Shown: positions 56,333 to 64,000 of the stretch, in pieces
Layout: each line of letters opens with the position of its first letter
Position numbering within the stretch: position 1 is the first letter of the stretch
From: Rhodospirillaceae bacterium
GTDB lineage: Bacteria; Pseudomonadota; Alphaproteobacteria; Rhodospirillales; Rhodospirillaceae
Reading direction: 5' to 3'
Assembly (NCBI GenBank): GCA_947476695.1
Contig: CANJRD010000007.1
Coordinates: 1-64,000 of the forward strand
Length of the DNA stretch: 64,000 nt
Position numbers and translations under genes: made by a program
The notes under the pieces: generated by a model
The model's database searches: none
What the model saw: the letters and a program-made list of their open reading frames with translations, nothing else
Told to the model about the DNA's origin: nothing

Positions 56333-57124
56333 ATGGCGCGTTCACAGCAAATCGTTCAACACCTGCCTTTCCTGCGCCGCTATGCGCGCGCGCTCACGGG
56401 TTCGCAAAGCAGCGGCGACGCGGCCGTGCGTTCAGTGTTGGAAGCCGTCATCCAGGATCAGAATGTGATCGGCGCTTCCGGTCAGGAACGCGTCGGCCTC
56501 TATCGTCTGTTCCATGTGATCTGGACGGCGGGCGAAAGCGCCACGAAGCGCCGGGTCGCCAAGGCCCCGGGCCGCGCCGCGATCAGCTCGAAACTCGCCA
56601 CGCTCGGCGTCGTGCCGCGCGAAGCGCTGCTCCTGACCATGATGGAAGGTTTCTCCCCCGAGGAGACCGCCACCATCCTGAACTGCAACGTGCAGGACGT
56701 CGTAGAACTGGTCGACGCCGCGATGACCGAACTGCGTGCGCCGGTGCCGGCGCAAATCCTGATCATCGAAGACGAACCGGTGATCTCGCTCGACCTGTCG
56801 CAGCTGGTCACCGAAATGGGCCACAGCGTGATGGCCGTTGCCCGGACCCGCGCCGAAGCGGTCGAAGCCGTGCGCGATGCGCGTCCGGCGCTGATCCTGG
56901 CCGACGTTCAACTTGCCGATGACAGCTCCGGCATCGATGCCGTGGCCGACATCCTCGAGAAGTTCGATGTGCCGACGGTGTTCATCACCGCCTTCCCGGA
57001 ACGCCTGCTGACCGGCGACCGCGCGGAGCCCGCGTATCTCATCACCAAGCCGTTCGTGCCGCAGAACGTGAAGACCGTCGTCGGCCACGTGCTGTCGATG
57101 GCCGAAGAAGCGGAAGCCGCCTAG
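56333..57124 (+). CDS. phyR: PhyR-type general stress response regulator, copy 1
   Basis: 263 residues from ATG 56333 (GGGGA upstream). Residues ~1-130 are a sigma-factor-like domain (HLPFLRRYARALTGSQSSGD, EALLLTMMEGFSPEETATIL) and ~135-260 a receiver: ILIIEDEPVISLDL, phospho-acceptor Asp in LILADVQLADDSSGIDA, TVFITAFPERLLTG and the Lys in LITKPF. When phosphorylated, PhyR binds the anti-sigma NepR through its sigma-like domain and frees EcfG. The PhyR of this window comes in two copies, both complete. Confidence 0.94.
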   Translation: MARSQQIVQHLPFLRRYARALTGSQSSGDAAVRSVLEAVIQDQNVIGASGQERVGLYRLFHVIWTAGESATKRRVAKAPGRAAISSKLATLGVVPREALLLTMMEGFSPEETATILNCNVQDVVELVDAAMTELRAPVPAQILIIEDEPVISLDLSQLVTEMGHSVMAVARTRAEAVEAVRDARPALILADVQLADDSSGIDAVADILEKFDVPTVFITAFPERLLTGDRAEPAYLITKPFVPQNVKTVVGHVLSMAEEAEAA

Positions 57125-57128
57125 CGTT

Positions 57129-58610
57129 TCAAGCGGCGACGTCGGGGCGATCGCGGTGGGCATTCGTGGGGCGTAAGCCCTTCGGCAACGCCCAGCCCGC
57201 GATGCCGCCGGCGGCGGCAATTACAATCCCCACGATGAAGGCGAGACGCAACGCGTCCGCCACCGCGCCGGTGACATGCGTCAGTTCGGCCGCGCTGAAC
57301 AGCGCGCGCCGCACCGGGTCGACCAGGTACTGCACAGGATCGGCGATCGCTGGCAGGCTGCGCGCAAGGCTTGTGTTCATCGCCGCCCCCAGGAAGGCCG
57401 TGCCCAGAGCCGCCCCCATCATGCGGTTGAAGGCATTGAAGGCGATGGCGATGCCGCGCACGTTCCACGATGCGGCATCCTGACAGGCGACAAAGAACGG
57501 CGAGTTCAGGAAGCCGAGACCGATACCGGTCAGGAACGACGCCACCGAGGCAAAGGTGGTCGAGGTCTCCGGGCCCATCATCGCCAGCATCCCGCTGCCG
57601 ACCATCAGCACAATCGCGCCGAGAATGGCTGACGTGCGGTAGGACGCGCGCAGCATCAGCCGGCCCGACAACGTCGCGGCAACCGGCCAGCCCAGCGACA
57701 TGAACATCAGCGGCGTGCCCGCGGCGTAAGCGGACGTGCCTAGCACGGCCTGCATGTACGTCGGGACGAAAACCGACACGCCCATCGACGCCGCGCCGAC
57801 CGCCAGCGCACCGAGATTGCAGGTGCGGATGATGTGGTCCTTCCACAGGAAGAACGGCAACAGCGGTTCCGGCGCGCGGCGTTCCTGGCGGGCGAACAGC
57901 ACCGCGCTGATCAGGCTGATACCCAGCACCGGCAACAACAGCGATCCGAGGTGATCCGCTTGCATCAGAGCCAGCATGAAGGTGCCGATGGCGATCACCA
58001 GCAACACGGCCCCGAACAGATCGATCTTGTGCTCGGCACGGCGCGGCGTTTCGCGGAACAGGAAGGCGATCAGCAGCGTGACGATGATCGCGATGGGGAT
58101 GTTGAACCAGAAGATCATCGGCCAGGTAAACTTGTCGACGATCAGCGCGCCGAGCATTGGGCCGATGACCGCGGCCAAGGCCCACATGCTGGCAAAAAAC
58201 CCTTGAAGCCGCGCGCGCTGCGCCGGCGTCAGCACGTCGCCGACGATGGTCTGCGCGACCGGCATGATCCCGCCGGCGCCGAGCCCCTGCACGACGCGCG
58301 CGAAGACCAGGAACAGCATGTTGGGGGCGAGGCCGCACAAGAGGGAGCCCAGAGTGAACAGGCCGGCGCCGATGAAAAACATCGGTTTGCGGCCGTACAG
58401 GTCCGCCAACCGGCCATAGATCGGGATGATGACGGCCTGCGCGAGGAGATAGGCGGCGAACGTCCAGCCGAACAGCGCATAGCCGCCGAGGGCACTGGCC
58501 ACGCGGGGCATGGCCGTGGCGGTGATGGTGCCTTCCACCCCGGTCATGAACATCACGCCCATGCAGGCGACGATGACTAACGCCTGCTTGCGCTTCTCAA
58601 CCGAATCCAA
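57129..58610 (-). CDS. MFS transporter, DHA2 family (EmrB/QacA type)
   Basis: 493 residues with 14 membrane segments. The N-terminal pattern ATAMPRVASALGG, GRLADLYGRKPMF (motif A) and LGAGGIMPVAQTIVGD are typical of 14-helix drug:proton antiporters. It ends with a short charged tail. No membrane-fusion partner gene is near. The stop lies 4 bases from the phyR stop; genes are convergent. Confidence 0.9.
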   Translation of the reverse strand: MDSVEKRKQALVIVACMGVMFMTGVEGTITATAMPRVASALGGYALFGWTFAAYLLAQAVIIPIYGRLADLYGRKPMFFIGAGLFTLGSLLCGLAPNMLFLVFARVVQGLGAGGIMPVAQTIVGDVLTPAQRARLQGFFASMWALAAVIGPMLGALIVDKFTWPMIFWFNIPIAIIVTLLIAFLFRETPRRAEHKIDLFGAVLLVIAIGTFMLALMQADHLGSLLLPVLGISLISAVLFARQERRAPEPLLPFFLWKDHIIRTCNLGALAVGAASMGVSVFVPTYMQAVLGTSAYAAGTPLMFMSLGWPVAATLSGRLMLRASYRTSAILGAIVLMVGSGMLAMMGPETSTTFASVASFLTGIGLGFLNSPFFVACQDAASWNVRGIAIAFNAFNRMMGAALGTAFLGAAMNTSLARSLPAIADPVQYLVDPVRRALFSAAELTHVTGAVADALRLAFIVGIVIAAAGGIAGWALPKGLRPTNAHRDRPDVAA

Positions 58611-58719
58611 CGTCGCGTCTCCGAGTTACGGCGCTGAAAAAGCACGCTGGTCCCGGCCTGTCCAGCGGGACTGCGGGCGATATCTCACGCTGTGTGCCAG
58701 CTATCGCAGGATTGGGATT

Positions 58720-60573
58720 TCAAACCGCCGCTGCGGCATCCCATTCCTCCTGCAAAGCCATCCAGGTGGCTTCGGCTTCGGACAACGCCGTTTCCTTAGC
58801 CCGCAGGTTGGCCTGCAAGGTCTGGAGCTTTGCCGCCGGCCCGGTGTACAGCGCGGGGTCGGCGAGCGCGGTCTGCAAGGCGGCGACCTCGGCATGCAGC
58901 TTGGTCGCCAGGGATTCGGCCTGGTCGACCTTCTTCTTCGAGGGCTTTGGGCGCGGCGCGGGCGGCTTGGGTTCAGCCTTCGGCGCAGCTTTCGGCGGCT
59001 CTTCGCGCACGGCGCGTTTGTTGAGCAGCCGCGCGCGATAGTCGCTCAGGTCGCCGTCAAAAGGTTGCACACGCCCGTTCTCGATCAGCCAGAAGCGGTC
59101 GGCGGTCAGCTCGACGATATGCGGATCGTGGCTGATCAGGATCACCGCGCCGTCATAGGTATTGATCGCCTCCACCAGGGCATCGCGGCTGTCGATGTCG
59201 AGGTGGTTGGTGGGTTCGTCCAGGAGCAGCAGGTGCGGCCGGGCCGAGGTCATCAGCGCGAACAGCAGCCGCGCTTTCTCGCCGCCCGAAAGGTGGCCGA
59301 CGATCGTCTCGGCGCGCTCCTGGCTGAAGCCGAAACGGCCCAGTTGGCTGCGCACCTCGCGCTCGCTGTCCTGAGGGCGGCGGCGCGCAAGTTCCAGGAT
59401 CGGCGTCGCGGACAGGTCGAGTTCCTCGGCCTGGTGCTGCGCGAAATAGCCGATGCGCAGTTTGTTCGATTTCGCGACCTCGCCGGACATCGGTGTCAGA
59501 CGGCCCGCGAGCAGTTTCACGAATGTCGATTTGCCGTTGCCGTTCGCGCCCAGCAACGCGATGCGGTCGTCGGAATCGAGCCGCATGGAGATGTTGCGCA
59601 GGATCGCTTTGCCGTCGTAGCCGACCGAGACGTCCTCGAAGGTGATCAGGGGCGGCGGCAGTTCCTCGGGCGGCGGGAACGACAGCGAGATGCCGGATTC
59701 CTCGGTGATCCCGACAACCGGTTCCATACGCTCAACCATCTTCAGGCGCGACTGCGCCTGTTTCGCCTTCGTCGCCTTGGCGCGGAAACGTTCGACGAAC
59801 TTCATCAACTCGGCTTTGCGGGCGTCTTGTTTCGCGCGCTGCTTTTCGGAGTGGACGATCCGCATACGGCGCGTGGCGGCGAAGCGGTCGTACCCGCCTT
59901 GATACAGCGTCAGCTTGCCGCCTTCGAGATGCAGGATCTCGTCGACCGCGCGATTGAGCAGTTCGCGGTCGTGGCTGACGATCAGGATCGTGCCGTTATA
60001 GCCGCGTAAATATTCCTCAAGCCATACAGTGGCTTCGAGGTCGAGGTGGTTGGTGGGTTCGTCGAGGAGCAGCAGGTCCGGTTGGGTGAACAGCAAGCCG
60101 GCGAGCGCCACGCGCATCCGCCAGCCGCCGGAGAAATCACTGCAGGGCCGCGCTTGTGCCGTATGATCGAAGCCGAGCCCCGCCAAGATGCGGGCCGCGC
60201 GCGCCGTGGCCGTATGCGATTCCTTGTCGCGCAAACGCGCATGGATCTCCGCGATCCGATCGCCGTCGGTGGATGTTTCCAGCTCACGCTGTAAGTCCGC
60301 GAGCTCGGTGTCGGCCGCGATCACCGTGTCGAGCAGGCTTTCCGCTCCGGCCGGCGCTTCCTGTTTGGTGATGCCGACCTTCCAGCGGGACGGCATGTCC
60401 ATCTCGCCGGCATCCGCTGACAGGGTGCCGGTGAGGAGCTTGAGCAGCGTCGTCTTGCCGGTGCCGTTTCGCCCGACAAGGCCGACGCGATGGCCCTCAT
60501 TGATGGTCGCGCTGGCCTCATCGAGCAGCACGCGGCCACCGATGCGATAGGTAAGCGCATTGATCCGCAACAT
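58720..60573 (-). CDS. ABC-F family ATPase (Uup/YheS-like)
   Basis: 617 residues with two ATP-binding halves: Walker A GLVGRNGTGKTTL and ALLGANGNGKSTF, signatures DFSGGWRMRVALA and LSGGEKARLLF, and Walker B LLLLDEPTNHLDLE and LLLDEPTNHLDID. No membrane segments; a charged linker between the halves (KATKAKQAQSRLKMVERM) and a coiled C-terminal tail. ABC-F proteins bind the ribosome E site and resolve stalling. Start codon ATG at 60573. Confidence 0.92.
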   Translation of the reverse strand: MLRINALTYRIGGRVLLDEASATINEGHRVGLVGRNGTGKTTLLKLLTGTLSADAGEMDMPSRWKVGITKQEAPAGAESLLDTVIAADTELADLQRELETSTDGDRIAEIHARLRDKESHTATARAARILAGLGFDHTAQARPCSDFSGGWRMRVALAGLLFTQPDLLLLDEPTNHLDLEATVWLEEYLRGYNGTILIVSHDRELLNRAVDEILHLEGGKLTLYQGGYDRFAATRRMRIVHSEKQRAKQDARKAELMKFVERFRAKATKAKQAQSRLKMVERMEPVVGITEESGISLSFPPPEELPPPLITFEDVSVGYDGKAILRNISMRLDSDDRIALLGANGNGKSTFVKLLAGRLTPMSGEVAKSNKLRIGYFAQHQAEELDLSATPILELARRRPQDSEREVRSQLGRFGFSQERAETIVGHLSGGEKARLLFALMTSARPHLLLLDEPTNHLDIDSRDALVEAINTYDGAVILISHDPHIVELTADRFWLIENGRVQPFDGDLSDYRARLLNKRAVREEPPKAAPKAEPKPPAPRPKPSKKKVDQAESLATKLHAEVAALQTALADPALYTGPAAKLQTLQANLRAKETALSEAEATWMALQEEWDAAAAV

Positions 60574-60612
60574 GGCGCGCGGTGTAGCATGCAGGATGGG
60601 AGCGGGAAACGC

Positions 60613-60894
60613 TTACGCGTCAGGCGGCAGCTTTTCGAGCCTGCTAATCAGCGCGTCGAAGTCGCTCGGCAGGGGCTCTTGCGCCACCGCGTCATAAGTC
60701 TCGTGAAGCGCCTTATTGAGCCAATCGTTGAACCCCGGATCGGTCCTGTTCGGGTCTTCTTGGCGAATTTCAGAAGCAGCGCGGTCTAACTCGCCTTCGC
60801 GGTCGGCGTAGATCAACCCCGGACGGTCGCCGGCCAGCGTTACGTCACGCTGGGTATCGGCCAGTCCAAGAGCGGATAAAGCGACGCGTAACAC
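60613..60894 (-). CDS. nepR: NepR-like anti-sigma factor
   Basis: 93 residues from GTG 60894, with AAGGAG nine bases upstream. The segment FNDWLNKALHETYDAV followed by EPLPSDFDALISRLEKL resembles the NepR core (helix with L-x-x-x-Y-D-x-V, then E-P-x-P and a second helix ending L-x-K-L). NepR holds the sigma factor EcfG until phosphorylated PhyR takes its place. The first ~45 residues are variable, as in the family. It is on the strand opposite to the phyR genes and about 0.9 kb from copy 2. No ecfG gene is in the window. Confidence 0.65.
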   Translation of the reverse strand: MLRVALSALGLADTQRDVTLAGDRPGLIYADREGELDRAASEIRQEDPNRTDPGFNDWLNKALHETYDAVAQEPLPSDFDALISRLEKLPPDA

Positions 60895-61052
60895 GCTACA
60901 CAGCTCCTTGCTTTAAGGCCGGGTTCTGAAGGCCGGGTTGCATTTCGGGCAGGCGGTTCCAGCTGTCCGATCAGTTTCATAACGCGTGGGAACCGCGATG
61001 GTTCACCATGCGATACGTAACGCGTTGGAATAAATTCGTTATTTCGCCCCTC

Positions 61053-61078
61053 GGAACCCCCCGGGTTGATCCGGCGTT
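61053..61078 (+). promoter_or_regulatory. EcfG-type promoter before the 89-residue gene
   Basis: GGAAC (61053-61057), 17 bases, CGTT (61075-61078): an exact match to the general-stress sigma consensus (GGAAC-N16-17-CGTT). It ends 37 bases before the ATG at 61115. It suggests that the two small genes downstream belong to the general stress regulon. Confidence 0.72.
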
Positions 61079-61114
61079 GGGTCTCCATCATCCCTACGTG
61101 CGTAAAGGCGAAAA

Positions 61115-61384
61115 ATGCAGACCTCAACCCAAGCCCCTATCGATCTTAAGCAGGCGAAACACAGCCCCAGCAGCGTTTTCACGACACCGGCCGAAGTCCT
61201 GTCCCACCCCGAGCTTTCCCAGGAAGCGAAGGTGGAGATCCTACGGCAGTGGGAGATCGACGCGCGACTCTTGGCTACGGCTGAGAGTGAAAACATGGCC
61301 GGAGGCGAGAGCAGCCATCTGGGTCAGGTCGTCAGCGCCCTCCTCGCGCTGGAAGACCAAGACCGCGCCCGGCCGGAGCACTAG
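61115..61384 (+). CDS. small stress-associated protein of unknown function
   Basis: 89 residues. SVFTTPAEVLSHPELSQEAKVEILRQWEIDARLL, in pieces, matches a widespread small alphaproteobacterial family with the pattern F-x-x-P-x-E-V-L and L-S-x-E-x-K-x-E-I-L-x-x-W-E-x-D-A. Mostly helical, soluble, acidic. Role unknown. Close to it, a proline-rich gene follows two bases after its stop, and an EcfG-type promoter precedes both. Confidence 0.8.
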   Translation: MQTSTQAPIDLKQAKHSPSSVFTTPAEVLSHPELSQEAKVEILRQWEIDARLLATAESENMAGGESSHLGQVVSALLALEDQDRARPEH

Positions 61385-61386
61385 AC

Positions 61387-61599
61387 ATGGCAGAAGCCGA
61401 TCCAAGCGATCCGCCGAAGCGGCCGCCGGAATATGCCCCCGGCAAGCCTGGAGCGCCAGAAGTGGCCCCGGGACGCGGCGGAGACGAGCGCCCGTCGGAA
61501 CCGGAAATCCCGAATCAGATGCCGGTCCCGGAGCCCGACTCCCCCCATACGCCGGAGCCGTCGGGTCCCGAGGTCAATCAGCCCCCGATGTCGACCTAG
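61387..61599 (+). CDS. proline-rich disordered small protein
   Basis: 70 residues: MAEADPSDPPKRPPEYAPG, then repeated Pro-Glu-Pro patterns (PEIPNQMPVPEPDSPHTPEP). About a quarter of residues are proline, with almost no hydrophobic core, so it is intrinsically disordered. It starts two bases after the previous stop and shares its promoter. Possible linker or stress protectant; unknown. Confidence 0.6.
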   Translation: MAEADPSDPPKRPPEYAPGKPGAPEVAPGRGGDERPSEPEIPNQMPVPEPDSPHTPEPSGPEVNQPPMST

Positions 61600-61759
61600 G
61601 CACCTAAAGCGGGTACCGGCTTCAACTTCTACAACCGCACACAACCGCGGCGTTTTTTCCTAGCTCGCTTTCCGCGCCCACGGCTATTGTGCGTGGCGGC
61701 TCCACTTTGTTCACCGCCTGGCTGTTGGGTGGAGCCCTAGGCAAATCCCCCTGCGGTCC

Positions 61760-62557
61760 ATGTCCCTCGGCAAAGAAGTCGCCCAGCAGCTTCCCTACCT
61801 TCGCCGCTATACGCGCGCCCTCACGGGAACGCAGCGCATCGGCGATGCGATTGTGAAGAAAGCCCTCGAAAGCATCGTTGCCGATCCGGCGAGCTATGAC
61901 CGTTCGGTCGGGGGGCCGCGCGCTGCGCTTTACCGTGCTTTCCAGCGCACCTGGACTGGCGTGCTCGGCGGTGCAGAAGGCCGCGCTATCGGCGTCTCGC
62001 ATGACGCACCGGATATCGGCGAGCGTCTGCGCGCGCTGAACCCGATCCGCCGTCAGGCGCTCCTGCTGACGGCGATGGAAGATTTCTCGCACAGCGACGC
62101 GGCCGCGATCCTCGAATGCTCGATCGACGCCGTCGATCAGATGGTGCGCGACGCACTGCTCGATCTGGTCGCGCAGACGCCGGCGACCGTGCTGATCATC
62201 GAGGACGAGCCTGTGATCTCGCTCGATCTTGCCAACATCGTCGAAGAGATGGGCCACACCGTTGTCGCCATCGCAACGACGCGTACGGAAGCGGTGGCCG
62301 CCGCGCGTGAAACCAAACCGGGCCTTGTGCTCGCCGACATTCAGCTGGCCGACGACAGTTCCGGCATCGACGCGGTGAACGACATCCTCGCCGAGCGTCC
62401 GACATCCGTGATCTTCATCACCGCCTATCCGGAACGCCTGCTGACCGGTGAACGTCCGGAGCCCGCGTTCCTGGTGACGAAGCCTTTCATTCCTGAGAGC
62501 GTGAAGGCTGTAATCGCGCAGGCCCTGCTGCTCAGCGAAGAAGCGCTCCGCGCTTAA
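61760..62557 (+). CDS. phyR: PhyR-type general stress response regulator, copy 2
   Basis: 265 residues. Sigma-like domain: QQLPYLRRYTRALTGTQRIGD, RQALLLTAMEDFSHSDAAAI. Receiver: VLIIEDEPVISLDLANIVEEM, Asp in LVLADIQLADDSSGIDA, VIFITAYPERLLTGE and Lys in VTKPF. Near-identical receiver to copy 1 but more divergent in the sigma-like half, the part that binds NepR. It is followed by two strong hairpins and a convergent ompA. Confidence 0.94.
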   Translation: MSLGKEVAQQLPYLRRYTRALTGTQRIGDAIVKKALESIVADPASYDRSVGGPRAALYRAFQRTWTGVLGGAEGRAIGVSHDAPDIGERLRALNPIRRQALLLTAMEDFSHSDAAAILECSIDAVDQMVRDALLDLVAQTPATVLIIEDEPVISLDLANIVEEMGHTVVAIATTRTEAVAAARETKPGLVLADIQLADDSSGIDAVNDILAERPTSVIFITAYPERLLTGERPEPAFLVTKPFIPESVKAVIAQALLLSEEALRA

Positions 62558-62652: not shown

Positions 62653-63744
62653 CTATTCGTAGATGATCTCGACGCGACGGTTCTGCGGTTCCTTCACGCC
62701 GTCGCCGGTCTGCACCAGCGGTTCGGACTCACCACGGAAGGACACGACGATGTCCTTGGCGGGGACGCCCAGGCGGATAAGTTCAGCTTTCACCGAGTCC
62801 GCGCGACGCTTCGACAGCGCCACGTTGTACTGATCGGTGCCCGACGTATCGGTGTGACCGGTCAGGTGGATCGCGGCTTTACCGCTCGAACGGTACTGCT
62901 GCGCAGCCTGTCCGACGATCTGCTTCGCGTCCTGACGCAGGTTCGACTTATCGAAGTCGAAGAAGGCCAGGATCTTGGCAGGAGCCGGCGGTGGCGGTGG
63001 CGGCGGCGGGGGCGGCGGAGCCGATGCCGTCTGGCGCGTTTCCGTCCGCTTTTCCTCGTGGCCGAACTTGAAACGCAGGCCGATCAGGACGTTGTGGCTA
63101 CGGTCGTCATGATTGACCAGCTGCGAGGTCAGGTTCGTGCGGCTGGTGATCGCCATGTTGTCGAGCACGATGTAGCGATAGTCGGCGAACAGGCTGAGGC
63201 GGCTGGAGAGCGGAACGGCCATGCCGCCGATCAACTGCCACTGGACGCCCGTGTCATGACCGCTGAACGTGGCCTGCGGGATCGAGCGCGAGCCCGGGCC
63301 CGCGACGCCCTGGAAGCGGTTACGACCGGCACCGATACCGGCACCGACGTAAGGCTGAATGCGGCCGGCGCTGTTGAAGTCATACAGCACGTTGCCCATG
63401 ATCCCGAGGGCCTGCTGACGGCCATCCCAGGGGATCGAGTTCATGTTGCGGACTTTGGCCGAACGCCAGCCGATTTCCATTTCCGCACGGAAGCCCGACG
63501 GGAACTTGTAACCGAAGGCGCCCGTGACGTTATAGCCGTCGTGGAAGGAGAGCTTCGCCGGAGCGCTGGTGGTGACGCCCGGGCCCGGCAGGATGGTGAT
63601 GCCATCGTCCGCCGCAGGCTGATGATAGCCGCCGCCGATGCTCATATACGGACCCGCGTCAGGGGCTTGCGCCCATGCTCCGCTGGTCAATGCGATGGCG
63701 CTGACGAACCCCATCAGAGCGCTCGCGTAATAATTAGATTTCAC
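62653..63744 (-). CDS. OmpA-family outer-membrane protein
   Basis: 363 residues from GTG 63744, with AAGGAGG six bases upstream. Signal peptide (YASALMGFVSAIALTSGAWAQ). The first ~230 residues are an eight-strand barrel (YHQPAADDGITI, FGYKFPSGFRAEMEIGWR). A run of eleven prolines links to the C-terminal OmpA domain with FFDFDKSNLRQDA, LTGHTDTSGTDQYN and LSKRRADSVKAEL, which binds peptidoglycan. It links the outer membrane to the wall. An EcfG-type promoter is upstream. Confidence 0.94.
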   Translation of the reverse strand: MKSNYYASALMGFVSAIALTSGAWAQAPDAGPYMSIGGGYHQPAADDGITILPGPGVTTSAPAKLSFHDGYNVTGAFGYKFPSGFRAEMEIGWRSAKVRNMNSIPWDGRQQALGIMGNVLYDFNSAGRIQPYVGAGIGAGRNRFQGVAGPGSRSIPQATFSGHDTGVQWQLIGGMAVPLSSRLSLFADYRYIVLDNMAITSRTNLTSQLVNHDDRSHNVLIGLRFKFGHEEKRTETRQTASAPPPPPPPPPPPAPAKILAFFDFDKSNLRQDAKQIVGQAAQQYRSSGKAAIHLTGHTDTSGTDQYNVALSKRRADSVKAELIRLGVPAKDIVVSFRGESEPLVQTGDGVKEPQNRRVEIIYE

Positions 63745-64000
63745 GGAAGACCTCCTTGCCGCTAGGTGAATTAAAGGCCGCAGGTTGCGGAAGTATGCGG
63801 CGTGACCGCCAGATGGCGTGCATGCGCGCGAATTGCTAGCCTTTTGGTTGCGAAATGCGGGGTTACAACGAGCATTGCGGTTGATTGTTCCCGGATTAAG
63901 GGCCTCAACCGCGTAATGGTGCCGCTGTGTTGCCGCAGCGCAACAACGTCACTGGAAGGCGAGACATTTAGCGGCGGGCTTGGGCGGTTTCCGTGGTCAG
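63745..64000. other. upstream region of the OmpA gene, to window end
   Basis: 256 bases. It holds the ompA ribosome binding site and the EcfG-type promoter described separately. Nothing else could be identified; no gene is seen up to the edge. Confidence 0.5.
63867..63891 (-). promoter_or_regulatory. EcfG-type promoter before ompA
   Basis: Read on the minus strand: GGAAC (63891-63887), 16 bases, CGTT (63870-63867). The match to GGAAC-N16-17-CGTT is exact. It lies 123 bases before the GTG, giving a leader of about 115 bases. Confidence 0.6.

Follow-up and report, generated by a model that had tools for sequence, protein, structure and literature searches.

The general stress response (GSR) of Alphaproteobacteria is governed by a partner switch in which a kinase acts through PhyR and NepR on the sigma factor EcfG, an order established for the family (PMC4814048, PMC12148442). 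Extra copies of these components have been described in several species. In Sinorhizobium meliloti, in which RpoE2 is the EcfG, two PhyRs (RsiB1/RsiB2) and two NepRs (RsiA1/RsiA2) cross-interact, and rsiA2 is not RpoE2-regulated (PMC4814048). Rubellimicrobium thermophilum also has two PhyRs (RT-PhyR and RT-PhyR', of GSR and GSR'; solved structures 9BY5 and 9CB6), and Methylobacterium extorquens has multiple EcfG and NepR proteins (PMC4814048). Here, we analyzed a window of 64,000 nucleotides on contig C7 of a Rhodospirillaceae genome (G000; 3.9 Mb, 31 contigs, 99.6% complete), which carries two phyR genes and one nepR gene. The window holds much of a GSR regulatory locus after duplication and rearrangement. 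We read it as probably a duplicated and rearranged alphaproteobacterial partner switch resembling that of S. meliloti.

As in S. meliloti, this genome encodes two PhyRs and two NepRs, and one nepR gene, here nepR2, lacks an EcfG-type promoter. However, one nepR here lies within the 4.6 kb that separate the phyR genes, there are three EcfG-like genes, and the interactions are putative. The two PhyRs of R. thermophilum are 64% identical, against 51% here, and they differ from ours in being encoded at separate loci, with an ecfG at each, alongside a single NepR (PMC12148442). M. extorquens shares with our genome the presence of lineage-specific GSR paralogs; those studied are EcfG and NepR, whereas here PhyR is doubled too. 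Duplicated GSR switches are already known from other species, and the unusual layout described here is common to two species of the source genus. Its core consists of the following features.

56333-57124, plus strand: phyR-A, encoding a complete PhyR, the extra and more diverged copy (NF006623 330 bits, three PhyR domains)
60613-60894, minus strand: nepR2, a NepR anti-sigma factor gene, with a conserved core at about 60631-60792 and an uncertain start codon
61053-61078, plus strand: predicted EcfG-type promoter, an exact match to GGAAC-N17-CGTT, 36 bases ahead of the small gene and phyR-B
61115-61384, plus strand: small conserved gene without a Pfam family, which sits between ecfG and phyR in relatives
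61760-62557, plus strand: phyR-B, encoding a complete PhyR, in the ancestral position (NF006623 323 bits)

A preliminary description of this DNA had proposed two complete PhyRs 4.6 kb apart, and profile searches bear this out. Both proteins exceed the 240-bit cut-off of NCBIfam NF006623 and the Pfam cut-offs of PhyR_sigma2, PhyR_sigma-like and Response_reg. Each consists of sigma2-like and sigma4-like parts followed by a receiver, and each can be aligned with solved PhyRs such as 3n0r across almost the whole protein; for the PhyR fold, the evidence from sequence is decisive. The receiver catalytic residues E146, D147, D191, T219 and K239 (PhyR-A numbering), comprising the acidic pair, the acceptor aspartate, the threonine and the lysine, are present and identical in both. 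A genome-wide search returned these two full PhyRs only. Both are conserved in the congeneric genome G001, a separate species compared for synteny, codon positions and promoters: the PhyR-A ortholog is 73% identical and occupies the same place, and the PhyR-B ortholog is 80% identical and syntenic. Between the two species, phyR-A differs at third, first and second codon positions by 0.40, 0.19 and 0.14 per codon, and phyR-B by 0.44, 0.15 and 0.10; this comparison is not a formal dN/dS. The excess at third positions indicates that purifying selection acts on both PhyRs and that both copies are maintained.

The NepR-like gene reported between them on the opposite strand is a genuine NepR, with predicted anti-sigma activity. 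Its product matches Pfam NepR (E 5e-5, 23.3 bits) slightly under the curated cut-off of 25.7 bits, which its G001 ortholog, in the same place, passes with 26.8 bits. When both NepR2 rows were left out of a NepR family profile, NepR2 was still the sole match among the 997 open reading frames of the window (E 5.3e-17; next best E 2.8). A NepR family profile also matches solved NepRs (3t0y_B, 9.5e-7) and is required to connect NepR2 with them, as phmmer with NepR2 alone found no match in the PDB; with NepR1 as query, phmmer reaches NepR2 at E 1.8e-6. We rejected a chance match on the strength of this ortholog in G001 and of the profile built without NepR2. Neither outcome that the preliminary description had named as a refutation was observed, since the NepR matches a profile and both PhyRs recur in a relative. 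The GTG start of nepR2 is uncertain, and conservation is limited to approximately the last 50 residues. The whole genome contains two NepRs. The second, nepR1 (C10:6415-6507), is over the Pfam cut-off, and both proteins retain the core motif common to solved NepRs. NepR2 is the ancestral copy by position, and NepR1 is the one nearer to relatives' NepRs by sequence. Third-position differences exceed those at first and second positions clearly in nepR1 (0.42 vs 0.17 and 0.17 per codon) and more weakly in nepR2 (0.68 vs 0.47 and 0.34).

Comparison with relatives in the family (L045, L046, L047, L049, L050) shows how the locus has been rearranged. Their order is nepR(-) ecfG(-) / small gene(+) phyR(+), with ecfG kept between nepR and the small gene. 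In the window, nepR, the small gene and phyR follow one another on the same strands as in those loci: its block, nepR2(-) / small gene(+) ... phyR-B(+), corresponds to that of the relatives minus ecfG, plus phyR-A upstream. As had been proposed, the usual phyR-nepR-ecfG order is therefore broken: no ecfG adjoins, and the nearest lies beside nepR1 on C10. Several of the family loci have an EcfG-type promoter in the same intergenic region as the window, and each has one PhyR where the whole genome was searched. Homologs of the small gene, 55-64% identical, stand beside phyR in G001 and in these five loci, and the gene may belong to the stress-response locus as a component not recognised so far. 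G001 carries an identical derived block, in the order xanthine-dehydrogenase-like gene, SH3, phyR-A, MFS (major facilitator superfamily), ABC-F, nepR2, small gene, phyR-B, OmpA; the arrangement thus predates the split of the two species. The arrangement may have originated by relocation of ecfG-nepR1 or by a duplication followed by differential loss.

PhyR-B, in the syntenic position, is 59-63% identical to most single-copy PhyRs of the family. In a PhyR tree, PhyR-A and PhyR-B both fall inside the family's own PhyR clade (support 99/99 and 100/99), with stem lengths of 1.83 and 0.40 changes per column, respectively. A foreign, horizontally acquired PhyR-A was rejected on this placement, and the grouping of PhyR-A with PhyR-B (79/94) suggests, short of proof, that PhyR was doubled by duplication within the lineage.

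The preliminary description had also placed ecfG and the PhyR kinases outside this neighbourhood, and whole-genome searches found neither an EcfG-like gene nor an HWE/HisKA2 kinase anywhere on C7, in the window or in the rest of the contig. An overlooked ecfG on C7 was rejected on this negative search and because the 220 bp gap between nepR2 and the small gene is too short. However, its phrase "no sigma factor in view", true of the neighbourhood, does not hold for the genome, which has three EcfG-like genes (C10:6723, C5:122894 and C10:113484) and nine distinct kinase loci found with HWE_HK and HisKA_2, all off C7. At the genome level, PhyR, NepR, EcfG-like factors and HWE/HisKA2 kinases are all encoded. 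The extracytoplasmic function (ECF) sigma factor gene at C10:6723-7277 lies directly upstream of nepR1 on the same strand, and its product is 66-75% identical to the ecfG adjoining phyR in family relatives; the other two products reach 64% (C5:122894) and 62% (C10:113484). We named these factors by synteny and by identity to such ecfG genes, because none of the three reached an NCBIfam EcfG model at cut-off. EcfG and NepR1 on C10 adjoin a HisKA2-type kinase. This dCache-HisKA2 kinase gene stands beside nepR1 in both species (7834-9603 of L027 on C10; 4730-6505 of L186 on contig C17 of G001) and is interrupted in both by an in-frame stop, the site of which differs: a TAG follows the histidine box in one species and a TGA precedes it in the other; the downstream catalytic part is still 67% identical between them. 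Additionally, an EcfG-like gene adjoins a motA-like flagellar motor gene in both species (L171 5452-6054, L163 6618-7280). The two proteins are 83% identical, and their position suggests a tie between this paralog and motility.

The promoter at 61053 has counterparts in G001 (11905) and in five family loci (L172, L173, L175, L128, L050), which likewise precede the small gene and are all of the form GGAAC-N16/17-CGTT. No motif match was found upstream of phyR-A or nepR2. For these predicted promoters it is positional conservation, not motif count, that carries weight. Together with the gene content, they lead us to propose the following model. Under stress, HWE/HisKA2 kinases encoded elsewhere would phosphorylate PhyR-A and PhyR-B, each of which would then sequester NepR1 and/or NepR2 through its sigma-like domain, thereby freeing EcfG sigma factors. 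EcfG would in turn transcribe the small gene and phyR-B from the conserved promoter, providing positive feedback. PhyR-A would act as a basal input and NepR2 as a basal brake, both placed outside the loop because their genes lack an EcfG-type promoter. That both PhyRs draw on both NepRs is what we infer, with the cross-interaction in S. meliloti as the closest tested precedent.

Whether the two PhyRs serve one switch or two is a question that had been raised from their sequences. The preliminary description held that the receivers are nearly alike while the sigma-like halves differ more, and took this contrast as a sign of separate partners or signals. The sigma-like halves are indeed less similar (38.0% identity), but "nearly alike" overstates a receiver identity of 63.6%, and the deduction is weakly founded: single-copy PhyRs of the family are asymmetric in the same way, with 74% identity in the sigma-like half vs 82% in the receiver, and we rejected different partners as the meaning of the unequal divergence. 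Of 106 positions that PhyRs in general conserve, PhyR-A has changed 4/36 in the sigma-like part and 11/70 in the receiver, and PhyR-B 1/36 and 2/70. The divergence of PhyR-A is therefore real, spread over both domains and not specific to the NepR-binding half. Because both domains have changed, the domain pattern by itself is no argument for different NepR partners. Changes at conserved positions in both domains would nevertheless suit two insulated switches, PhyR-A with NepR2 and perhaps one EcfG paralog, and PhyR-B with NepR1-EcfG, each with its own kinases and signals. This reading would also fit the divergence of NepR2 from NepR1, the presence of three EcfG-like genes and the case of R. 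thermophilum, whose two PhyRs differ in kinase preference and NepR coupling (PMC12148442). However, PhyR-A keeps 32/36 of the conserved sigma-like positions, both NepRs keep the core motif, the paralogs of S. meliloti cross-bind, and synteny links NepR2 with PhyR-B, not with PhyR-A. We consider such insulation unlikely.

Several observations weigh against a single cross-connected switch of the S. meliloti kind. NepR2 is the fastest-evolving part, with 49% identity over 53 codons between G000 and G001, and it might have lost one of its partners. The pairing of PhyR-A and PhyR-B as sisters in the tree reaches a support of only 79/94. The window contains four motif matches where 1.6 are expected, which is not significant alone. 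Furthermore, the two species may use different sigma factors in the loop, because at the place where G000 has a whole ecfG, between the kinase and nepR1, G001 holds only a fragment of approximately 36 residues (L186 6439-6780, C17; 67% identical).

The divergence of NepR2 also bears on its function. It could be a PhyR-binding competitor instead of an anti-sigma factor, releasing NepR1 and damping the response, as proposed for NepR paralogs of M. extorquens. NepR homologs of that species bind PhyR, with no sigma partner found (PMC4814048), no ecfG stands beside nepR2 in either of our two species, and NepR2 is more diverged than NepR1. The retained motif common to solved NepRs and the availability of three EcfG-like genes as partners speak for a sigma-directed role, which makes the competitor rather improbable. 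A further reading, to which we would give little credence, is that PhyR-A and NepR2 form a second, non-canonical layer. NepR2 would then act for PhyR instead of a sigma factor, and PhyR-A would set the threshold of PhyR-B from outside the EcfG loop. If so, selection for a tuned pair would have held the phyR genes together, and the sigma gene would have moved away.

Surveys of relatives, in which approximately 6 to 9 candidates were scored per genome so that weak extra copies may be missed, place the pair in context. In a sample of the class, a PhyR occurs in 71/389 genomes, with more than one in 11 of these 71, among them the source genome. A single other genome has a pair on one contig within 12 kb, and its PhyRs are separated by 11.5 kb, the next shortest distance; two PhyRs 4.6 kb apart are thus unusual. 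In a sample of the order, PhyR occurs in 21/281 genomes, and both genomes of the source genus that carry it have two PhyRs, as no others do. The distribution of PhyR in the order is patchy: many family members with nearly complete genomes lack it, the congeneric G002 among them, a pattern that suggests that the GSR was repeatedly lost or gained. The genus could be losing the GSR, its duplicated genes being relics. The stops in the nepR1-linked kinase, the ecfG fragment in G001 and the lack of PhyR in G002 and in most genomes of the order would agree with such decay. It is, however, very improbable, as two species retain intact copies of both PhyRs and both NepRs, PhyR differences fall mostly at third codon positions, and intact EcfG-like genes remain.

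Studies of genomes that combine several PhyRs with several NepRs cover few species. The source genus offers a tractable natural case: its two PhyRs are linked, one of them predicted to act within the EcfG feedback loop and the other apparently outside it, one NepR gene is separated from the gene of its sigma factor, and the family includes single-PhyR relatives for comparison.

The block includes or adjoins further features.

57129-58610, minus strand: MFS transporter (Pfam MFS_1), between phyR-A and nepR2, in the same place in G001
58720-60573, minus strand: ABC-F ATPase (Pfam ABC_tran, ABC_tran_Xtn), between phyR-A and nepR2, likewise in G001
61387-61599, plus strand: short proline-rich open reading frame directly after the small gene, with a similar proline-rich frame in G001
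63867-63891, minus strand: candidate EcfG-type promoter, an exact match ahead of an OmpA-like gene (62653-63744, minus strand)

The MFS transporter and the ABC-F ATPase are probably unrelated to the switch. The OmpA-like porin gene next to phyR-B may belong to the EcfG regulon; G001 likewise has a match upstream of its OmpA-like gene. Among other genomes, an unrelated alphaproteobacterium (L188; G158 C250:12000-31900) has two PhyRs, separated by 11.5 kb, in a large cluster that also contains a NepR, two EcfG-like genes, several kinase and receiver matches and a weaker homolog of the small gene. In one family relative (L045/L175; G080 C45), the single PhyR is split by an in-frame TAA. Finally, the database titles of some records (L044, L047, L049, L071, L077) seem to be mistaken. 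Alphaproteobacterial GSR loci occur on contigs labelled Candidatus Marinimicrobia, and Sphingomonas-like PhyRs in records labelled Bacillus and Arthrobacter.

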